Source of the DNA: a virus
Length of the DNA: 23,173 nucleotides
Reading direction: 5' to 3' (one strand)
IMG/VR virus record: IMGVR_UViG_3300025168_013722
Location: 1 to 23,173 of that record
Part shown: piece by piece, positions 4,623 through 15,076 of the stretch
How the letters are laid out: every line of letters begins with the position of its first letter
Position numbering within the stretch: position 1 is the first letter of the stretch
Program-made: the position numbers and the translations under genes
Notes under the pieces: model-generated
Database searches by the model: none
What the model saw: only the letters and a program-made list of their open reading frames with translations
Told to the model about the DNA's origin: nothing

Positions 4623-5501
4623 ATGTCATCCCTTATATCACCTTATGAATTTACTGAAGTAACCCGCCAACTCCGATCCTTTTTTGATGAAAAAGGATTT
4701 CAAGAAGTACATACCCAAAACAGATTATCTATACTTGCTGCTTGTGAAGATCCAACAACAGTTGCGACTTACGAGTACTCTGGACAAATCTGGCCTTTAC
4801 CTCAAACTGGTCAAATGTGGTTAGAATATGAACTACTGACAAAACCAGAATTGAAAGGGTGTTATTGTGTATCAACATCATATCGACAAGAACAGAATCC
4901 AAAAGAAGGAAGACATGAATTAATCTTCCCAATGTTTGAATTTGAGGCTCCTGGCGATTTTGAAGATTTACTTCAATTAGAAAACGATCTTTGTAAACAT
5001 CTTGGATTCAAATGTGATCATGAAAGGAATCGTTTTACTGAAAATTTCCCTGGCGGTTTTTATCAAAGTGTGCTAGCAAAATATACTGGTGTAGAATTAG
5101 ATGCCGGTCATGAAGAGGAAATGTATAAAGAATATGGAGATGTATTCTTTTTAACGCATTTTCCAGAATCAACAAGTCCTTTTTGGAACATGAAACTTGG
5201 TGAAATGGATGTGAAAAAGGAAAAGAAACTTGCTAATAAATGTGATGTTATCATGGGCGGAATGGAAACTATTGGTAGTGCGGAACGTGGTACTGATGTT
5301 GATGAAATGAAAAATCAATTCTATACTATCTCTGAAGGCGGTTATGCAGAATTATTGTTTAATCTATTCGGAAAAGATAGAGTAGAAGCAGAACTTGAAC
5401 AATTTCTTGCACACGATTTCGTTCCACGATATGGTGGTGGAATTGGTATAACTAGAATGATTAGTGCTATGAAACGTGCTAGGTTAATCGTAAATGACTG
5501 A
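4623..5501 (+). CDS. AsnA/AsnRS-like class II aminoacyl-tRNA synthetase catalytic domain without anticodon-binding domain
   Basis: 292-aa protein made only of the class II synthetase core. Motif 2 is YRQEQNPKEGRHELIFPMFE (residues 87-106, with R88, E90, R97-H98) and motif 3 is GGGIGITRM (271-279, with R278). The segment IGSAERGTDVDEMKNQFY (217-234) resembles both AsnRS (GGSxRE...) and AsnA, and EAELEQFLAHDFVPRYGGGI before motif 3 resembles AsnA (asparagine synthetase A). No N-terminal OB anticodon-binding domain exists: the catalytic core starts within 10-15 residues. Known precedents are AsnA and the archaeal AsnRS paralogue that makes asparagine. AAAGGAGG lies 2 nt before ATG. It heads the window's only plus-strand unit, ending in a tRNA with Asn anticodon. 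Asparagine synthesis and tRNA charging are both possible; the choice is inference. Confidence 0.78.
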   Translation: MSSLISPYEFTEVTRQLRSFFDEKGFQEVHTQNRLSILAACEDPTTVATYEYSGQIWPLPQTGQMWLEYELLTKPELKGCYCVSTSYRQEQNPKEGRHELIFPMFEFEAPGDFEDLLQLENDLCKHLGFKCDHERNRFTENFPGGFYQSVLAKYTGVELDAGHEEEMYKEYGDVFFLTHFPESTSPFWNMKLGEMDVKKEKKLANKCDVIMGGMETIGSAERGTDVDEMKNQFYTISEGGYAELLFNLFGKDRVEAELEQFLAHDFVPRYGGGIGITRMISAMKRARLIVND

Positions 5502-5656: not shown

Positions 5657-5735
5657 TGCAGGGTGGCGAAATTGGCAAACGCATTCCGTTGTTGGCGGTC
5701 ATAAACTGAAGGTTCGATTCCTTCCCCTGCAGCCA
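5657..5735 (+). tRNA. tRNA with GUU anticodon (Asn), atypical anticodon stem
   Basis: A cloverleaf can be drawn: acceptor TGCAGGG (5657-5663) pairs with CCCTGCA (5725-5731), discriminator G (5732) and encoded CCA (5733-5735); D stem GCG/CGC (5666-5668, 5680-5682) around a loop with GG; T arm GAAGG-TTCGATT-CCTTC (5708-5724). The loop TTGTTGG (5689-5695) gives anticodon GUU for Asn, and G73 also fits Asn identity. Oddities: only three anticodon-stem pairs form (CCG/CGG), positions 27:43 and 28:42 are mismatched, the variable region is 7 nt, and the D arm looks more like a tRNA-Leu. It is transcribed with the synthetase-like gene. It could be a divergent functional tRNA or a decayed one. Confidence 0.8.
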
Positions 5736-5766: not shown

Positions 5767-6258
5767 TTAAACTGGCATCTGAAATAATGCAGTAATCCAT
5801 TTTGGTGTTTTGATTCGTGCAAACACTACCCATCCTATGTAATCAGTAGGGTTTCTCCATTGTCTTTTTATCTTAAATTCTTCCATCGAACCGCCAGTAG
5901 TAAGTACATCATCGACAATACAAATCGGGTCTTCTCTTTTTCCTGTTCCATATTGATTGAGCAAACTTCCTAATTTAGTTCCCCCTCTAGGTATTCCTAC
6001 TGCCTCTTTAAATGGTGGTGAAATCTCCATAATCATTTGACTGATAGTAAACCATTCTGGATCTGATATAGCATCACACTCAATTTTCCATTTAAGTTCT
6101 AATCCCGAATGAGATTTAAAATCTACTGATTGAAATAAATGTGTATGTCTCCCTATATTTTCGTTCATAATTGCCCCTTCTAATCTACAAGCCCATGCTA
6201 AAGACATACCAACAAAGGCTACAAATATCCAAATAATAATTTCTCTTTTATTAAACAT
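5767..6258 (-). CDS. Phosphoribosyltransferase-like protein (OPRT type) with optional N-terminal membrane segment
   Basis: 163 aa. The PRPP-binding loop is CIVDDVLTTGGS at about 112-123 (consensus VxDDVxTTGGS of orotate-type phosphoribosyltransferases), preceded by the flexible-loop/PPi region GIPRGGTKLGSLLNQY at about 88-103 and by HSGLELKWKIECDAI, found in a plasmid/phage PRT group. Residues 7-24 form a membrane segment. An internal ATG (Met31, start 6168) has the better ribosome site (GAAGGGG, 6 nt before), so a soluble 133-aa form starting there may be the main or a second product. The substrate base is unknown. The candidate structured RNA at 6268-6434 lies immediately upstream and could be its leader. 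It fits the purine/pyrimidine salvage theme of the neighbours. Confidence 0.78.
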   Translation of the reverse strand: MFNKREIIIWIFVAFVGMSLAWACRLEGAIMNENIGRHTHLFQSVDFKSHSGLELKWKIECDAISDPEWFTISQMIMEISPPFKEAVGIPRGGTKLGSLLNQYGTGKREDPICIVDDVLTTGGSMEEFKIKRQWRNPTDYIGWVVFARIKTPKWITALFQMPV

Positions 6259-6267
6259 ACTATCTCA

Positions 6268-6434
6268 TTAAAAAAAAGAGTGCTAGTTTGCCCCTCTGAG
6301 TCCCTTGCAAAAATCAAATTTTACAAGTTTAATAATAGACTACCTTTACAGAAGATCACTAAGCGATAGACGAATTCCGCCGGTCTAGATGTTGAAAAGT
6401 TGTCATCTTTTCGCACTAGAGCGCAACACTCTTT
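6268..6434 (-). ncRNA. Candidate structured RNA (~165 nt) with late promoter and U-tract end
   Basis: No plausible ORF. On the minus strand the region starts 5 bases after a late box (6439-6446) and ends in eight U. The ends pair: AAAGAGTG at the 5' end (6434-6427) with CACTCTTT at the 3' end (6282-6275), extended by TTGC/GCAA. Internal perfect hairpins: GAAAAG/CTTTTC (6394-6399, 6407-6412, 7-base loop), TAGAC/GTCTA (6367-6371, 6383-6387, 11-base loop) and a 9-pair stem at 6304-6312/6319-6327 with one G-U in RNA. No tRNA T-arm and no match I know to tmRNA, RNase P, or glutamine riboswitches. T4 has stable RNAs C and D of unknown role as precedent. It may be a stand-alone RNA or the leader of the downstream PRT gene. 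Confidence 0.6.
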
Positions 6435-6437
6435 ATT

Positions 6438-7409
6438 TCATTTATACTCTTGATTTTCGGGAAGATGTTGTTTACCATCTTTTCCCACTTCTTCATTATC
6501 TATGTACTCATCATCCACATAAGATTGTGCAAGTCTCCATTTGAGATATTCGTATGCAGAAATTGGAGAATATTTGTCTGGTTGGTTTGTAAGATTTTTG
6601 ATAATCACATCACGGCCTGGGTCTACAAAATAGGGCATTGAGTATCGTGGCCTATCCATATCTACATTTACTACACGATGTGGCGTTGATTTTAATATAT
6701 CGTTTGACCATCTTGCAAACATATCTGCAACATTTAATACTATAGAATTTTTAACTGATGGTACAGTAACCCACACATCATCTTTTTTGTCATAAACTTG
6801 TAACGCACTTATATCATCAAAACGCCAGAGTAAAGTGATAGAACCATAGTCTGTATGAGCTCCACCTCTGACTTGTCCTTCTTTAATATTATCTTTCCAC
6901 GCAGGATAATGAATCATTCTCATGGTTGCAGAACCATCTATATGTTGCTCAACTAATGATCCTGTAGGAATTCTTAGAACTTTTTCAAATCTATAGAGGA
7001 ATTGATAGGACAACATTCTTGAAATGCGTTCTATCTTTTGTGCGAGAGGTTTAAATTCGGGAATTTCTTTGGGCCAGTATTGTTCCTGCATACGGTCAGG
7101 AGAAACCCAATTGTAAGATTCTTTCAAATCGCCAGGCATGGTTGGAGTCAGACGCTCCTCCTCCAACCAATTATAGCCAAGGTTTTCTTTCACACCACTA
7201 TAAGCATATTGTCGTTTTGCTGATAGTGGTAGATGGAAGAACTCTTCCATGAGTTGTTTCCAATCTTCAAATTCCGATAACCAATTATCATAGACATGAG
7301 TAAAGACAGCAAAACCACAAGTGGAATATGCTTTGTACATTTCTTCAATGCAGTCATTCTCAAATCTAAAATCAATTATCGGAATAGAGCTCACTGATAA
7401 TGTGGTCAT
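6438..7409 (-). CDS. 2-oxoglutarate/Fe(II) dioxygenase, isopenicillin-N-synthase-like
   Basis: 323-aa cytosolic enzyme. The N-terminal domain (about 8-110) matches the DIOX_N layout of isopenicillin N synthase relatives (IPIIDFRF..., CGFAVFTHV). The C-terminal double-stranded beta-helix carries the iron triad H185-x-D187 (GGAHTDYGS) and H244 (STPHRVV), and R255-x-S257 (RYS) binds the 2-oxoglutarate carboxylate. Members hydroxylate or ring-close small molecules, including nucleobases and hormones, so the substrate cannot be told. It starts one base after the stop of the BMP binding-protein gene, so translation is coupled and its substrate may be linked to what that protein brings in. Length is normal for the family and all key residues are present. 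Confidence 0.88.
   Translation of the reverse strand: MTTLSVSSIPIIDFRFENDCIEEMYKAYSTCGFAVFTHVYDNWLSEFEDWKQLMEEFFHLPLSAKRQYAYSGVKENLGYNWLEEERLTPTMPGDLKESYNWVSPDRMQEQYWPKEIPEFKPLAQKIERISRMLSYQFLYRFEKVLRIPTGSLVEQHIDGSATMRMIHYPAWKDNIKEGQVRGGAHTDYGSITLLWRFDDISALQVYDKKDDVWVTVPSVKNSIVLNVADMFARWSNDILKSTPHRVVNVDMDRPRYSMPYFVDPGRDVIIKNLTNQPDKYSPISAYEYLKWRLAQSYVDDEYIDNEEVGKDGKQHLPENQEYK
6439..6446 (-). promoter_or_regulatory. T4-type late promoter box TATAAATG
   Basis: One mismatch from TATAAATA, on the minus strand, overlapping the last codons of the oxygenase gene. Predicted +1 is 6433, within one base of the outer helix of the candidate RNA (6434). The match of position and structure supports both calls. 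Confidence 0.6.
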
Positions 7410-9186: not shown

Positions 9187-10263
9187 TTAAGGGTTTACTG
9201 CTCCCGGCCTCGCATACATTTTATCTACAGGAACTTCAAACACCCTTATCATTAAATCTAATTGAATAAATCGTTTCTTACGGATAATTGTAACTGAAAC
9301 TTTTTTACCAATTTCATGTTTATTCATTTCTTCTGCAAATTCTATGCCATTGTTAATTGGTATTCCATCAATTGCTACTATTGTATCCCACAATTTCAAT
9401 TCTTCTGGAATGGTTTTATCTTCACTTATCAACAATCCAAGAGTATTTGGAATATTTTTTTGATTAACTGTGGGATTCTTTTTTAAAATATTATCCCTTT
9501 GTCGATCATCTCCTAATGGAGTAATCATAATACCAAGCGCACCCCTATCCACGATGCCATATTCTAACATTGTTTTAACAGAGTGTTTTACAATGTCTGC
9601 TCGAATTGAAATTGCCAATCCTGCATTTTCATTTACTTTAGAAATCATCAAAGAATTAATTGCAACAATTTCCCCCTTCATATTCATAAGAGGCCCACCA
9701 GAATTTCCTTTATTGATAGCTGCATCTGTTTGAACAGCTTTAATATAAGGATGCCTTGCAAATCTATCTGTGTTTGAAAGGATTCCTTTAGTCACAGTCC
9801 ATGTCATACCCATTGGATGACCCATTGCAAAAACTTCATCTCCTGTTTTCAATTCGCCCTCTGCGAATTTGAGAAAAGAAACAGGAGTTTCTTTATCCGT
9901 TACTTTAAGAAGTGCTAGGTCTGCGAGCGGATCTCTTCCTATAATTGATACTTCGTGTCCTTCCCAATCATTTTCATCCCAATAAAATATTCTGAGATAT
10001 TTTTGATTATGGATGCAATGATAGTTAGTAATGATATATTGATTCTCTATCACAACACCCGAACACGCAGAATTTTGTGCTGGGTTTGTTGCTGGATTTT
10101 CGAGCGCACTTGCCATCACATAGACTATGGATTTTTTTACACGTTCTATTACTGATGGTAAATCATTTTTGTTTTCTTTAACTGATATGTTGTTACTATT
10201 TGTCGCACAACTAATAACGAATATAGAAAAACACATCAAGCCAAGCAGCCTGTGTATTTTCAT
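9187..10263 (-). CDS. HtrA/DegP-like serine protease, lipoprotein-anchored
   Basis: 358 aa. Residues 1-19 end in a lipobox (VISC, Cys19), so it should be lipid-anchored on the periplasmic side. The trypsin-like domain has the full triad: H82 (ITNYHC), D115 (DPLADLALLK) and S188 (NKGNSGGPL). A single C-terminal PDZ-like domain spans about 240-345 (LGIMITPL..., WDTIVAIDGIPINNG). DegP has two PDZ domains and DegS one, so the layout is DegS-like but with a lipid anchor. Ribosome site GTAGGA before ATG. It closes a run of envelope genes (SbmA-like, lipoproteins, MotA/MotB-like). Likely roles are processing or removal of envelope proteins, or control of host envelope stress; all catalytic residues are intact. 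Confidence 0.88.
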   Translation of the reverse strand: MKIHRLLGLMCFSIFVISCATNSNNISVKENKNDLPSVIERVKKSIVYVMASALENPATNPAQNSACSGVVIENQYIITNYHCIHNQKYLRIFYWDENDWEGHEVSIIGRDPLADLALLKVTDKETPVSFLKFAEGELKTGDEVFAMGHPMGMTWTVTKGILSNTDRFARHPYIKAVQTDAAINKGNSGGPLMNMKGEIVAINSLMISKVNENAGLAISIRADIVKHSVKTMLEYGIVDRGALGIMITPLGDDRQRDNILKKNPTVNQKNIPNTLGLLISEDKTIPEELKLWDTIVAIDGIPINNGIEFAEEMNKHEIGKKVSVTIIRKKRFIQLDLMIRVFEVPVDKMYARPGAVNP

Positions 10264-11712: not shown

Positions 11713-12693
11713 CTATACCTTTTCATACTCCATCAATTTAGTTTCAAATTCTCTTAACCGCCTAAAAACACTCATTAATTCAATAATGGTAGGCCACGCT
11801 TTTAATAGATATTGCATTGATCCTTCTACTCTACCAAATGCTCTTATTATTTGTTGCATTACACCTAGAGTCATTACTCCTACAACTATTGCTGGTGCTA
11901 GGAATACATAAGCTGATAATACGTTTGCTTGTAAGTAAGCCATTCGTCCAATATTAAAATATAGATAACGTATATAACTTAAAAAATGAATTTTACGAAC
12001 ATCATCAAAGAATTCCTCAATTTTCTTTGGTCTAACAGTTCCATCATCTTCTGCAATAACCAGTATTTTTCTATATGCTGCTTCTTTTGCTTGTATATCA
12101 TATTCTATACCAACTAAACGCAATATCCACCCCAATCCGATTAAAAAGGCAGTACCACCTAATGTCCAAAGTAATGCACCTGTAATCAATCCATATTCCC
12201 AATCACCGAAAAAGAATATTGGAATACCTATTGACAATCCAAATAATATAGGAATAAACTGAACCAAAACCATAATCGATTCAATTAAAGATGTTCCTAA
12301 ACTTTCCATTATTCGGGTAAATTTAATTGTATCTTCTTGAACCCTTTGTGATGCACCTTCTATTGTTCTGGCCTTCTCATACACACTATGATACCATTCA
12401 ACCATTGCTGTACGCCATCTAAACAAATAGTGAGCTGTAAAATAACTTATTACAACATAGAGTGCAACATATATTCCTGCTAGTGTAATAAATGATAATA
12501 GACTTGCAAAATATTCTTCTATTGTAATTGCATTTGGTGTAGCAAGTGCTTTTTGAATCATGTCATAAAATTGACCAAACCATTCATTTATTTTTACATC
12601 AATCTTTACTTGAACCCAAAGTGATCCCAAAATAATCATTGAGCCAAGCCAAGACCATAACCACCATTTTTTGTTTGTAAAAAATCTAAACAT
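11713..12693 (-). CDS. SbmA/BacA-like peptide transporter (inner membrane)
   Basis: 326-aa polytopic protein with the SbmA_BacA family signature: WRTAMVEWYHSVYEKARTIE then EGASQRVQEDTIKF (112-125), which matches the conserved region of SbmA (...IEGAAQRVQEDTMRF...), followed by LGTSLIESIMVLVQFIPIL. SbmA is a proton-driven homodimeric importer of microcins, proline-rich peptides and other cargo; BacA is its rhizobial relative. Cellular proteins are about 400 aa, so this one is shorter by roughly 80, with N-terminal and C-terminal ends reduced. Membrane segments are visible at about 12-30, 64-90, 132-155, 160-195 and 250-280. It follows three small lipoprotein genes. Cargo in infection is unknown: peptide uptake as nutrient and altered envelope permeability are both possible. 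Confidence 0.85.
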   Translation of the reverse strand: MFRFFTNKKWWLWSWLGSMIILGSLWVQVKIDVKINEWFGQFYDMIQKALATPNAITIEEYFASLLSFITLAGIYVALYVVISYFTAHYLFRWRTAMVEWYHSVYEKARTIEGASQRVQEDTIKFTRIMESLGTSLIESIMVLVQFIPILFGLSIGIPIFFFGDWEYGLITGALLWTLGGTAFLIGLGWILRLVGIEYDIQAKEAAYRKILVIAEDDGTVRPKKIEEFFDDVRKIHFLSYIRYLYFNIGRMAYLQANVLSAYVFLAPAIVVGVMTLGVMQQIIRAFGRVEGSMQYLLKAWPTIIELMSVFRRLREFETKLMEYEKV

Positions 12694-13423: not shown

Positions 13424-13918
13424 TCATTCTCTTTCTGAGTTCTTTTGTTGACTGTCAGATTTATAATCCCATTCATAGAAACTAATATCTCCGCCAATTG
13501 TGATTCCGCCTTCTTGTTCTTCTTTTCCTTCTTCCTCTCCTGTTCCTTCATTCTCTTCTTCACGTAAAACCATAAATTTTCCTTCTTGTTCCGATTTCTG
13601 TTTCACACCCTCTAATGCTTCATGTGTTTTCTTTGTATATACTAACTGGTAAGATATAGGAATTCTTTCTTTATATACAACCCACAAATAAATCCAATTT
13701 GGTTCATCAATATAATGTTTAAGATATAATCCTTCTTTTGGATTTTCAATTCTTGGATATCCTAATATTGAAGTATATGTTACATATGTTGATGAAACCA
13801 AAACAAGAACAAGAGGAATAAACCAAATCAAAAACTTTGGGTTTTTTCTCCCTTCAATCAACAACCATAAACATATAATTGAAAGTAATACCAATCCTAA
13901 AATTAAAAGTTCTATCAT
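13424..13918 (-). CDS. Two-span membrane protein with acidic C-terminal region (164 aa)
   Basis: Hydrophobic helices at 1-21 (MIELLILGLVLLSIICLWLL) and about 29-49 with a short basic loop (EGRKNPK) between them, then a domain of about 75 residues with aromatic beta-like segments (YLKHYIDEPNWIYLWVVY; YQLVYTKKTHEALEG), then a Glu/Gly-rich stretch (about 120-138, EENEGTGEEEGKEEQEGG). No family recognised. The ATG overlaps the stop of the MotB/ExbD-like gene by four bases, so it is probably a third part of that membrane assembly. Confidence 0.72.
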   Translation of the reverse strand: MIELLILGLVLLSIICLWLLIEGRKNPKFLIWFIPLVLVLVSSTYVTYTSILGYPRIENPKEGLYLKHYIDEPNWIYLWVVYKERIPISYQLVYTKKTHEALEGVKQKSEQEGKFMVLREEENEGTGEEEGKEEQEGGITIGGDISFYEWDYKSDSQQKNSERE

Positions 13919-14625
13919 CTGTCTGTCCCTCTTACTTCTCCTGCCGCACCTGTAAAGTTTTGTGGGGGGTTGTCCAAACTGGTTGGCTGTATATTACCCA
14001 TTCTCTCTTGCAACGGAGTCACAAACTTTTTCTTTTCAAATGTAAATGGTGGAAGAATGTTTCCATCTTTGTCCAATCTAAATCTCAAAAAAGTTTCTTC
14101 TTGTCCTTTATGAGTAAACGTTTTCTCTCCTACCCATGCTATTGTATATGGATTTACTTTGTGTAACTCTACTCTTACTGTTATAGTTGGTTTTTCCTGA
14201 GTAAGCTTATCATAACTTCTTACAGAATAATAATGGCCATTGACAGTATATTCGCCCTTGATAATTCCACGAATAGTTACTACTTCTCTATTGATTGCAA
14301 TAGTAGTTGTTGAACCATCCGCATTAACTACAGTATCATTCATTGCACCCAAATCATCTTTATCTAAGTGCATAAAGTTGTGATTATGATATCTGAAACT
14401 AACTTGTTTGTTCGTGGGATCTTCTACATAGAGATCTATATCTCCACTAGCATCGTTATCCCATTCCATCACAACAACAAATTCGGCTCTCCGTTCAAAA
14501 TCTTTTTTCTTTGCTTCTGGTTTTATTAGAAGAAACGCTATGATGAAAAGAAATGCAAAACCAACAAGAATGTTAAAAAGCAGATCTGTAAAACCAATGG
14601 TGGATTTGTATTTTTCATTATTCAT
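13915..14625 (-). CDS. MotB/ExbD-like single-span protein fused to a DUF2135-like beta domain
   Basis: 236 aa. A short N-tail is followed by TDLLFNILVGFAFLFIIAFL (about 13-32): one membrane helix with Asp14 at its N-terminal edge, the place of the conserved ion-carrying Asp in MotB, ExbD, TolR and ZorB. After a charged linker (KPEAKKKDFERR) comes a beta-rich domain with VVMEWDNDASGDIDLYVEDP (51-70), which fits the DUF2135/YfaP-like pattern (W-D-x-D-x-S-D-x-D-L-x-V-x-D-P), and later GIIKGEYTVNGHYYS. A family-typical peptidoglycan-binding OmpA domain is absent. The ATG overlaps the MotA/ExbB-like gene by 8 bases, supporting a stator-like pair. Pairing is well supported by order and motifs; what it drives is unknown. 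Confidence 0.72.
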   Translation of the reverse strand: MNNEKYKSTIGFTDLLFNILVGFAFLFIIAFLLIKPEAKKKDFERRAEFVVVMEWDNDASGDIDLYVEDPTNKQVSFRYHNHNFMHLDKDDLGAMNDTVVNADGSTTTIAINREVVTIRGIIKGEYTVNGHYYSVRSYDKLTQEKPTITVRVELHKVNPYTIAWVGEKTFTHKGQEETFLRFRLDKDGNILPPFTFEKKKFVTPLQERMGNIQPTSLDNPPQNFTGAAGEVRGTDR

Positions 14626-15076
14626 TTAAAGCCACTTCAAGATTAACTAACTGAACTTTAATAATGAGAGAACATATAAGACCAACTAATGTAGTCCACA
14701 ATGCAGTACTCATTCCTACTGCCATATCTGATAATGCATTTTGTAGAGTAATTGCATTTGATACATCAACATTTTCAAATGCCGTCCCTAGCATTATTAG
14801 AAAACCAGTAACGGTTCCTACCATTCCAAGTGCAAGACACGATTCTGAAACGAACCATCCTACATCTCCTTTTTGATTATAATCTTGTAATATTCCGACT
14901 CGATAAGTTAGCGAACCTATCCAAACAGAAGTACATCCAAAAATAATTAGTATAAGAAAACTCAACCTAGTTATATCGGATTCATATAAACTCTTATGAA
15001 CATCGAAATAAAAACAAGCACCAATTCCTAGTATGGTCATACAAAATATTAACCACCATTTTAGTACAGACTTCAT
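14618..15076 (-). CDS. MotA/TolQ/ExbB-like proton channel subunit
   Basis: 152 aa with four membrane helices at about 7-24, 38-58, 80-99 and 119-141. The last two carry the MotA_ExbB core: GMVGTVTGFLIMLGTAFENV (84-103) and LSDMAVGMSTALWTTLVGLI (115-134), including the GTVTG and the small-residue-rich helix with T-A-L-W-T-T lining the ion path in family members. It is short: the large cytoplasmic domain of MotA/TolQ between helices 2 and 3 is reduced to about 20 residues. The ATG is in TGATG with the guaC stop and its end overlaps the MotB/ExbD-like gene. Expected to form a 5:2 inner-membrane complex with it. Confidence 0.8.
   Translation of the reverse strand: MKSVLKWWLIFCMTILGIGACFYFDVHKSLYESDITRLSFLILIIFGCTSVWIGSLTYRVGILQDYNQKGDVGWFVSESCLALGMVGTVTGFLIMLGTAFENVDVSNAITLQNALSDMAVGMSTALWTTLVGLICSLIIKVQLVNLEVALNE

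Follow-up and report, generated by a model that had tools for sequence, protein, structure and literature searches.

Gene content of the record and position of the RNA

The window analysed here is a viral source record taken at its full length of 23,173 nt, with a G+C content of 35%. Its genes include those for a PnrA-like binding protein, a 2OG-Fe(II) oxygenase, a phosphoribosyltransferase (PRT)-like protein, ThyX and an IMPDH/GMP reductase, together with members of phage protein families most familiar from marine phages of the T4-like group. The phage is uncultured, T4-like and probably marine, the marine origin being judged from its gene content and from the phages related to it.

An AsnRS-like class II catalytic-domain protein (4623–5501, plus strand; PF00152, 292 aa) lies beside a tRNA-Asn (5657–5735, plus strand). 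This pair recurs in L003, L004, L007, L011 and L076 (L numbers denote other viral loci) and in Prochlorococcus phage P-SSM7, and in L088, L090 and L095 the partner of the AsnRS-like gene is an odd tRNA of ~100 nt with an anticodon unreadable by ARAGORN. The minus strand encodes a DegP-like trypsin/PDZ protease with a lipoprotein-type N-terminus (9187–10263), a full-length SbmA/BacA-family peptide transporter (11713–12693; PF05992, E 1e-132), with relatives recognised by eye in L089, L129 and L081, and, at 13915–15076, a MotA/TolQ/ExbB-like protein (PF01618) and, after it, a protein with named-phage relatives in Rhizobium phages only. These relatives give a hint of an alphaproteobacterial host.

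Between the oxygenase and PRT-like genes lies a structured RNA on the minus strand. The features of the locus, in 5′ to 3′ order along that strand, are as follows.

6438–7409 (−): upstream gene, 2OG-Fe(II) oxygenase (PF03171, E 8e-20; PF14226), ending at the 5′ end of the RNA
6439–6446 (−): T4-late-like box TATAAATG, a sequence match that overlaps the oxygenase stop codon and C-terminus
6270–6434 (−): structured RNA of ~165 nt, flanked by the stop of the oxygenase gene (6438) and the start of the PRT gene (6258)
~6434/6433 to 6270 (−): predicted transcript of the structured RNA
6425–6434 (−): P1 5′ strand, AAAGAGUGUU, pairing with 6275–6284
6416–6420 (−): P2 5′ strand, UCUAG, pairing with 6384–6388
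6394–6412 (−): P3 hairpin, GAAAAG-AUGACAA-CUUUUC, with UGAC in the loop
6384–6388 (−): P2 3′ strand, CUAGA
6363–6380 (−): P4 hairpin, GCGG-AAUUCGUCUA-UCGC, with GUC in the loop, complementary to GAC of the P3 loop
6293–6354 (−): P5, a variable arm (CUUCUG/CAGAGG, AGUC/GACU, CUUGUAAAA/UUUUGCAAG)
6275–6284 (−): P1 3′ strand, AGCACUCUUU, the complement of AAAGAGUGUU, ~140 nt further on
6270–6277 (−): U8 run, a terminator-like 3′ end directly 3′ of P1 that shares the last P1 pairs
5767–6258 (−): downstream gene, PRT-like ORF of 163 aa

The PRT assignment is based on a VDDVLTTGGS motif recognised by eye and on 54 homologous loci, with no Pfam family matched at E ≤ 0.001. Within the RNA, the longest ORF on its own strand is 31 aa, with a GTG start, and the lengths of family members range from 117 to about 165 nt, so that a conserved ORF is unlikely. 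The preliminary description of a structured RNA of ~165 nt is upheld, as is its terminal U8, which corresponds to the eight Ts after P1 in the window.

Conservation and covariation of the fold

A protein search with the oxygenase returned ten loci, six of which carry a related RNA directly after the oxygenase stop codon and four of which lack it. The shared core GGCGG..GTC..CGC was scanned as a pattern across viral contigs, and a covariance model built from 19 members recovered these as well as members outside the training set. The model matches the window at 6272–6436 (cmsearch 83.7 bits, E 3e-15 to 7e-15). It found the non-training member L081 at 67 bits and scored L129, L126, L130, L107, L123, L120, L108 and a second copy in L113, likewise outside the training set, at 54–87 bits; L122, also non-training, is weaker at 32.5 bits and keeps all helices and both loops by eye. 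Homologues were thus found on 36 viral contigs, comprising 29 distinct aligned sequences and close duplicates.

One architecture is common to all homologues. P1 joins both ends and is followed by P2/P3, P4 (GCGG/YCGC), a variable P5 and a U-rich 3′ end, a U-rich flank being seen in almost all members; P1, P2/P3, P4 and P5 meet at a four-helix junction. All members form a hairpin at P5, its length and sequence being unrelated from one member to another. By eye, P5 also shows a candidate T-loop-like 7-nt motif.

In an alignment of the 29 distinct sequences fitted to the model, 91.8% of cells form standard pairs, compensatory changes occur at 17 of the 26 pairs (105 cells), and the covariation score was reached by none of 500 shuffles. 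Sliding the partner strand by 1–3 columns as a control lowers pairing to 36–44%. As a model-fitted alignment leans towards its own model, two structure-blind MAFFT alignments were added. The first (A2) is 90.9% paired with 12 pairs compensated, and from the second (A5) RNAalifold finds P1, P2 and P4 de novo, with compensation at 11 of 18 pairs. Helix by helix, compensatory changes affect six of eleven pairs in P1 (95% of cells paired), all five in P2 and five of six in P3 (77% of cells paired), while 99% of cells are paired in P4. P2 is the clearest case, with UCUAG/CUAGA in the window against UUCAG/CUGAA, CCGG/CCGG and GUGRGA/UCUCAC in other members. We are nearly certain that the window RNA is a conserved structured RNA. 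The pairing of its 5′ and 3′ ends, proposed in the preliminary description, is retained across homologues as P1, and the covariation that was looked for as its test is present in all three alignments.

The predicted folding energy of the window RNA is, by itself, suggestive only: the MFE (minus strand, 6446 to 6264) is −46.5 kcal/mol, compared with −35.9 for the average shuffled sequence (z −2.6; 3 of 200 shuffles as good), and the opposite strand gives a z-score of −1.1. This modest value could suit a decayed gene, or an AT-rich spacer that folds by chance, but that reading is refuted by the compensated pairs, the collapse of the slid controls and the recovery of non-training members, and we give it virtually no credence. 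The conserved fold differs from the MFE fold of the window, and the hairpin AUCGC-UUA-GUGAU, which competes with the conserved P4, is probably not real. Among the obvious perfect hairpins, only GAAAAG/CUUUUC (P3) is family-wide; CUUGUAAAA/UUUUGCAAG belongs to the variable P5.

While the helices drift, UUG, UGAC, CG and GUC in the loops and junction stay almost unchanged, with UGAC (P3 loop) and GUC (P4 loop) found in 29 of 29 members; such a pattern is expected of a binding surface and not of a plain terminator. The two loops are complementary to one another as GAC:GUC in all 29, and a fourth pair, U-A or U-G, is available in 28 of these, the window being the exception with U-U. The P3 and P4 loops could therefore kiss, although the loop columns hardly vary, so that covariation cannot prove the pair. 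A tRNA-like reading, in which the 7-nt UGAC loop would serve as the anticodon loop, was rejected because the helix order is wrong.

Genomic context, distribution and expression

The RNA almost always starts at, or no more than ~190 nt from, the stop codon of a co-directional upstream gene. These genes vary and include the oxygenase, a PnrA-like binding protein, a lipoprotein, an FmdB-like protein and, in L075, PurF. The upstream frame enters the RNA by 65–93 nt in L089, L126 and L129 (FmdB-like) and in L123 (PurD-like by eye), where the RNA thus supplies the C-terminus of the protein. The downstream genes vary too (PRT, a second PRT, pyrF-like, PurF, IMPDH/GMP-reductase-like, Na/Pi cotransporter and gp33). 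Names for FmdB, PurD, pyrF and the lipoprotein were assigned by eye; those for the oxygenase, PnrA, the second PRT, PurF (glutamine amidotransferase plus PRT domains), the Na/Pi cotransporter and gp33 are Pfam-based.

In about a third of members, the next feature is convergent (tRNA-Asn or small ORFs), and the next gene is so oriented in L002, L003, L004, L011, L074, L088, L090, L095 and L130. A co-directional gene follows in ~2/3 of contexts, often within about 15–90 nt, and cis action on that gene is thus possible. L002 and L006 share both flanks, with the RNA present in one and missing from the other, and none of the 54 loci found by PRT homology carries it. The varied and convergent contexts, the L002/L006 pair and the PRT loci together indicate that the RNA is tied to neither neighbour. 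A ligand-sensing leader of the PRT gene, which the preliminary description had entertained, is not supported by these contexts, nor by the four oxygenase loci that lack the RNA, and a PRT riboswitch was rejected as a general role.

Only one of the 36 contigs (493 kb in total) holds a second copy. This is L113, a 9.4-kb contig with two diverged copies at 13–175 and 5127–5251. Assuming genomes of ~140 kb, as in related isolates, we estimate about one copy per genome, within a range of ~1–3, which is unlike a repeated terminator or operator.

As far as tested, the RNA is specific to phages. When 85k cellular genomes were scanned with a pattern, the only matches were five chance ones in coding sequence, a weak negative given the narrow pattern, and the covariance model found no match in 398 Pseudomonadota genomes, again a weak negative given the strict filters; on these two results, mimicry of a host RNA was rejected. 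Nor did a host version emerge for the host-regulator decoy raised in the preliminary description. Among named phages, BLAST returned no homologue, and the covariance model had no match in 13 marine or other T4-like or rhizobial phages, where the first-look filter passed no candidates. Full-model scans of named-phage pieces gave chance matches only, the best (23.8 bits) being antisense within gp59.

The late box of the preliminary description is indeed present at 6446–6439 as TATAAATG, but T4-late-like boxes are conserved only within the oxygenase-linked clade: TATAAAT is kept in L002, L003, L007, L011, L074 and L076, and is missing in L004, L005 and all other clades. With T4 spacing from TATAAATG, transcription would start at 6433, where the first pairs of P1 lie. 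A late promoter of the TATAAATA type fits the window and six relatives in both box and spacing, lies within coding sequence and is absent elsewhere. In L069, L071 and the near-identical L078, a strong sigma-70-type promoter with an extended −10 (TTGACA-17-TATACT, an 11/12 match in L069/L071) stands ~17–21 nt upstream of P1; the next gene in L071 encodes the late-transcription coactivator gp33 (PF16805). No promoter conserved across clades was found, and most members have no recognisable promoter of their own. On these sequences, some members plausibly use a promoter of their own, and many members may arise by release from upstream transcripts, at the 3′ end of these. A standard terminator scan did not detect the RNA. 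A boxA/put-type antiterminator was rejected, there being no consistent boxA and the element lying at operon ends.

Possible function and relation to known RNAs

The best single reading, to which we assign roughly an even chance, is that of a discrete trans-acting phage RNA that is made either as a 3′-end transcript or from a promoter of its own. Such an RNA would accumulate as a discrete species. In most phages it would be cleaved out of the upstream transcript or would terminate it, and in others it would be transcribed separately from its own promoter. P1, by closing before the U-run, would set the 3′ end and protect the RNA, and the compact core with its kissing loops would work in trans during infection by binding a host or phage protein, RNA polymerase or the translation machinery. 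The reading is drawn from the varied, sometimes convergent downstream genes, the L002/L006 pair, the L069/L071 promoter, the low copy number and the invariant loops.

Other roles account for parts of this evidence. The conserved junction and loops are aptamer-like, and P1 with its U-run resembles a conditional terminator, as would suit an attenuator or riboswitch in which binding of a ligand or protein closes P1 before the U-run and halts transcription into the next gene. That gene often belongs to nucleotide metabolism (PRT, pyrF-like, purF, IMPDH/GMP-reductase-like), and riboswitch candidates are carried by marine T4-like phages (manA and wcaG, PMC2864571; the glutamine riboswitch, PMC9004378). 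Nucleotide genes are, however, abundant in these phages anyway, the next gene is convergent in nine members and is the Na/Pi cotransporter or gp33 in others, and the 54 PRT and four oxygenase loci do without the RNA, so that we regard cis action of this kind as rather unlikely. Also unlikely is a mobile 3′-end cassette, that is, a structured terminator or exonuclease block that guards an mRNA at its 3′ end and relocates from one gene end to another, like T4-type cassettes. It would explain why the RNA usually abuts or overlaps the upstream co-directional stop, even forming the C-terminus in L089, L126, L129 and L123, as well as its presence or absence between identical flanks and its U-rich 3′ end; but a terminator needs neither invariant loops nor a conserved junction, a genome holds about one copy and not many, the copy in L069, L071 and L078 lies behind a promoter and upstream of gp33, and the terminator scan missed the RNA. 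A self-cleaving ribozyme, or another catalytic RNA that processes phage transcripts, might be read from the compact multi-helix fold, the invariant junction and loop residues and the position within transcripts near gene ends, yet the sequence suggests no cleavage site and no Rfam ribozyme family matches, and we consider it highly improbable.

The preliminary description of a stand-alone structured RNA of no known family is supported by the strong covariation and by the negative outcome with Rfam. With Rfam 15, the window and the L003, L071 and L107 regions gave no match beyond chance at E ≤ 10 with lax filters, and the RNA in seven member loci gave none at the gathering score. The RNA is outside all catalogued Rfam families and represents a new family of phage-encoded structured RNA, of about 115–165 nt. 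No description of it was found in the literature searched, mainly open-access articles. To our knowledge, few phage-encoded structured RNAs are known, and fewer have covariation support. Tentatively, and with less confidence than in action in trans as such, we suggest a new functional class: a kissing-loop, four-helix-junction RNA of an uncultured marine T4-like phage lineage that would engage a host machine (polymerase, ribosome or RNase) or sense a nucleotide-pool metabolite, and so reprogramme the infected cell. The RNA is found across many independent contigs, and, with so highly conserved a core, its partner or ligand can be sought directly. Should the RNA prove to act on the host, it would open a way into how phages of the ocean control hosts in which regulation depends on RNA.

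T4-type phages encode small non-coding RNAs, such as RNAs C and D of T4, that have no assigned function, and by analogy the new RNA is possibly a stable phage RNA in their manner; model R2 had no match in the T4 genome (NC_000866), a weak negative in that the first-look filter passed no candidates. 6S RNA, a stable stand-alone RNA in which a long outer helix joins both ends, is similar in length and in that helix, but is a rod with a central bubble where the new RNA has a four-helix junction with short hairpins, and no Rfam 6S match was obtained. PeSL mobile cassettes are short, intergenic and tied to gene exchange in T4-type phages; they consist of a promoter and a simple stem-loop, in contrast to the large, conserved multi-helix RNA described here, which mostly has no conserved promoter.

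The manA and wcaG motifs, both structured RNAs, occur in marine metagenomes and in T4-like cyanophages, manA being reported near nucleotide-synthesis genes among others and placed in potential 5′ UTRs (PMC2864571), whereas the new RNA is usually at gene ends and sometimes faces convergent genes. Across 13 member records, the manA model (RF01745) gave no match at E ≤ 10 and the wcaG model (RF01761) none at the RNA, with sub-threshold scores of 10.7–13.8 bits elsewhere in the records. The glnA and tmRNA models were not among the Rfam matches on the new RNA, and our models had no match in Mosig or Melnitz. L078 separately encodes a permuted two-piece tmRNA (9716–10099, minus strand; RF04321, 88.8 bits) on the same contig as its gp33-linked RNA. 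In the Melnitz and Mosig phages, a glutamine riboswitch and a two-piece tmRNA take up the slot immediately before gp33, and the Melnitz paper places the tmRNA after an early promoter (PMC9004378). This slot of the glutamine riboswitch and tmRNA is the very one that the new RNA occupies in L069, L071 and L078.
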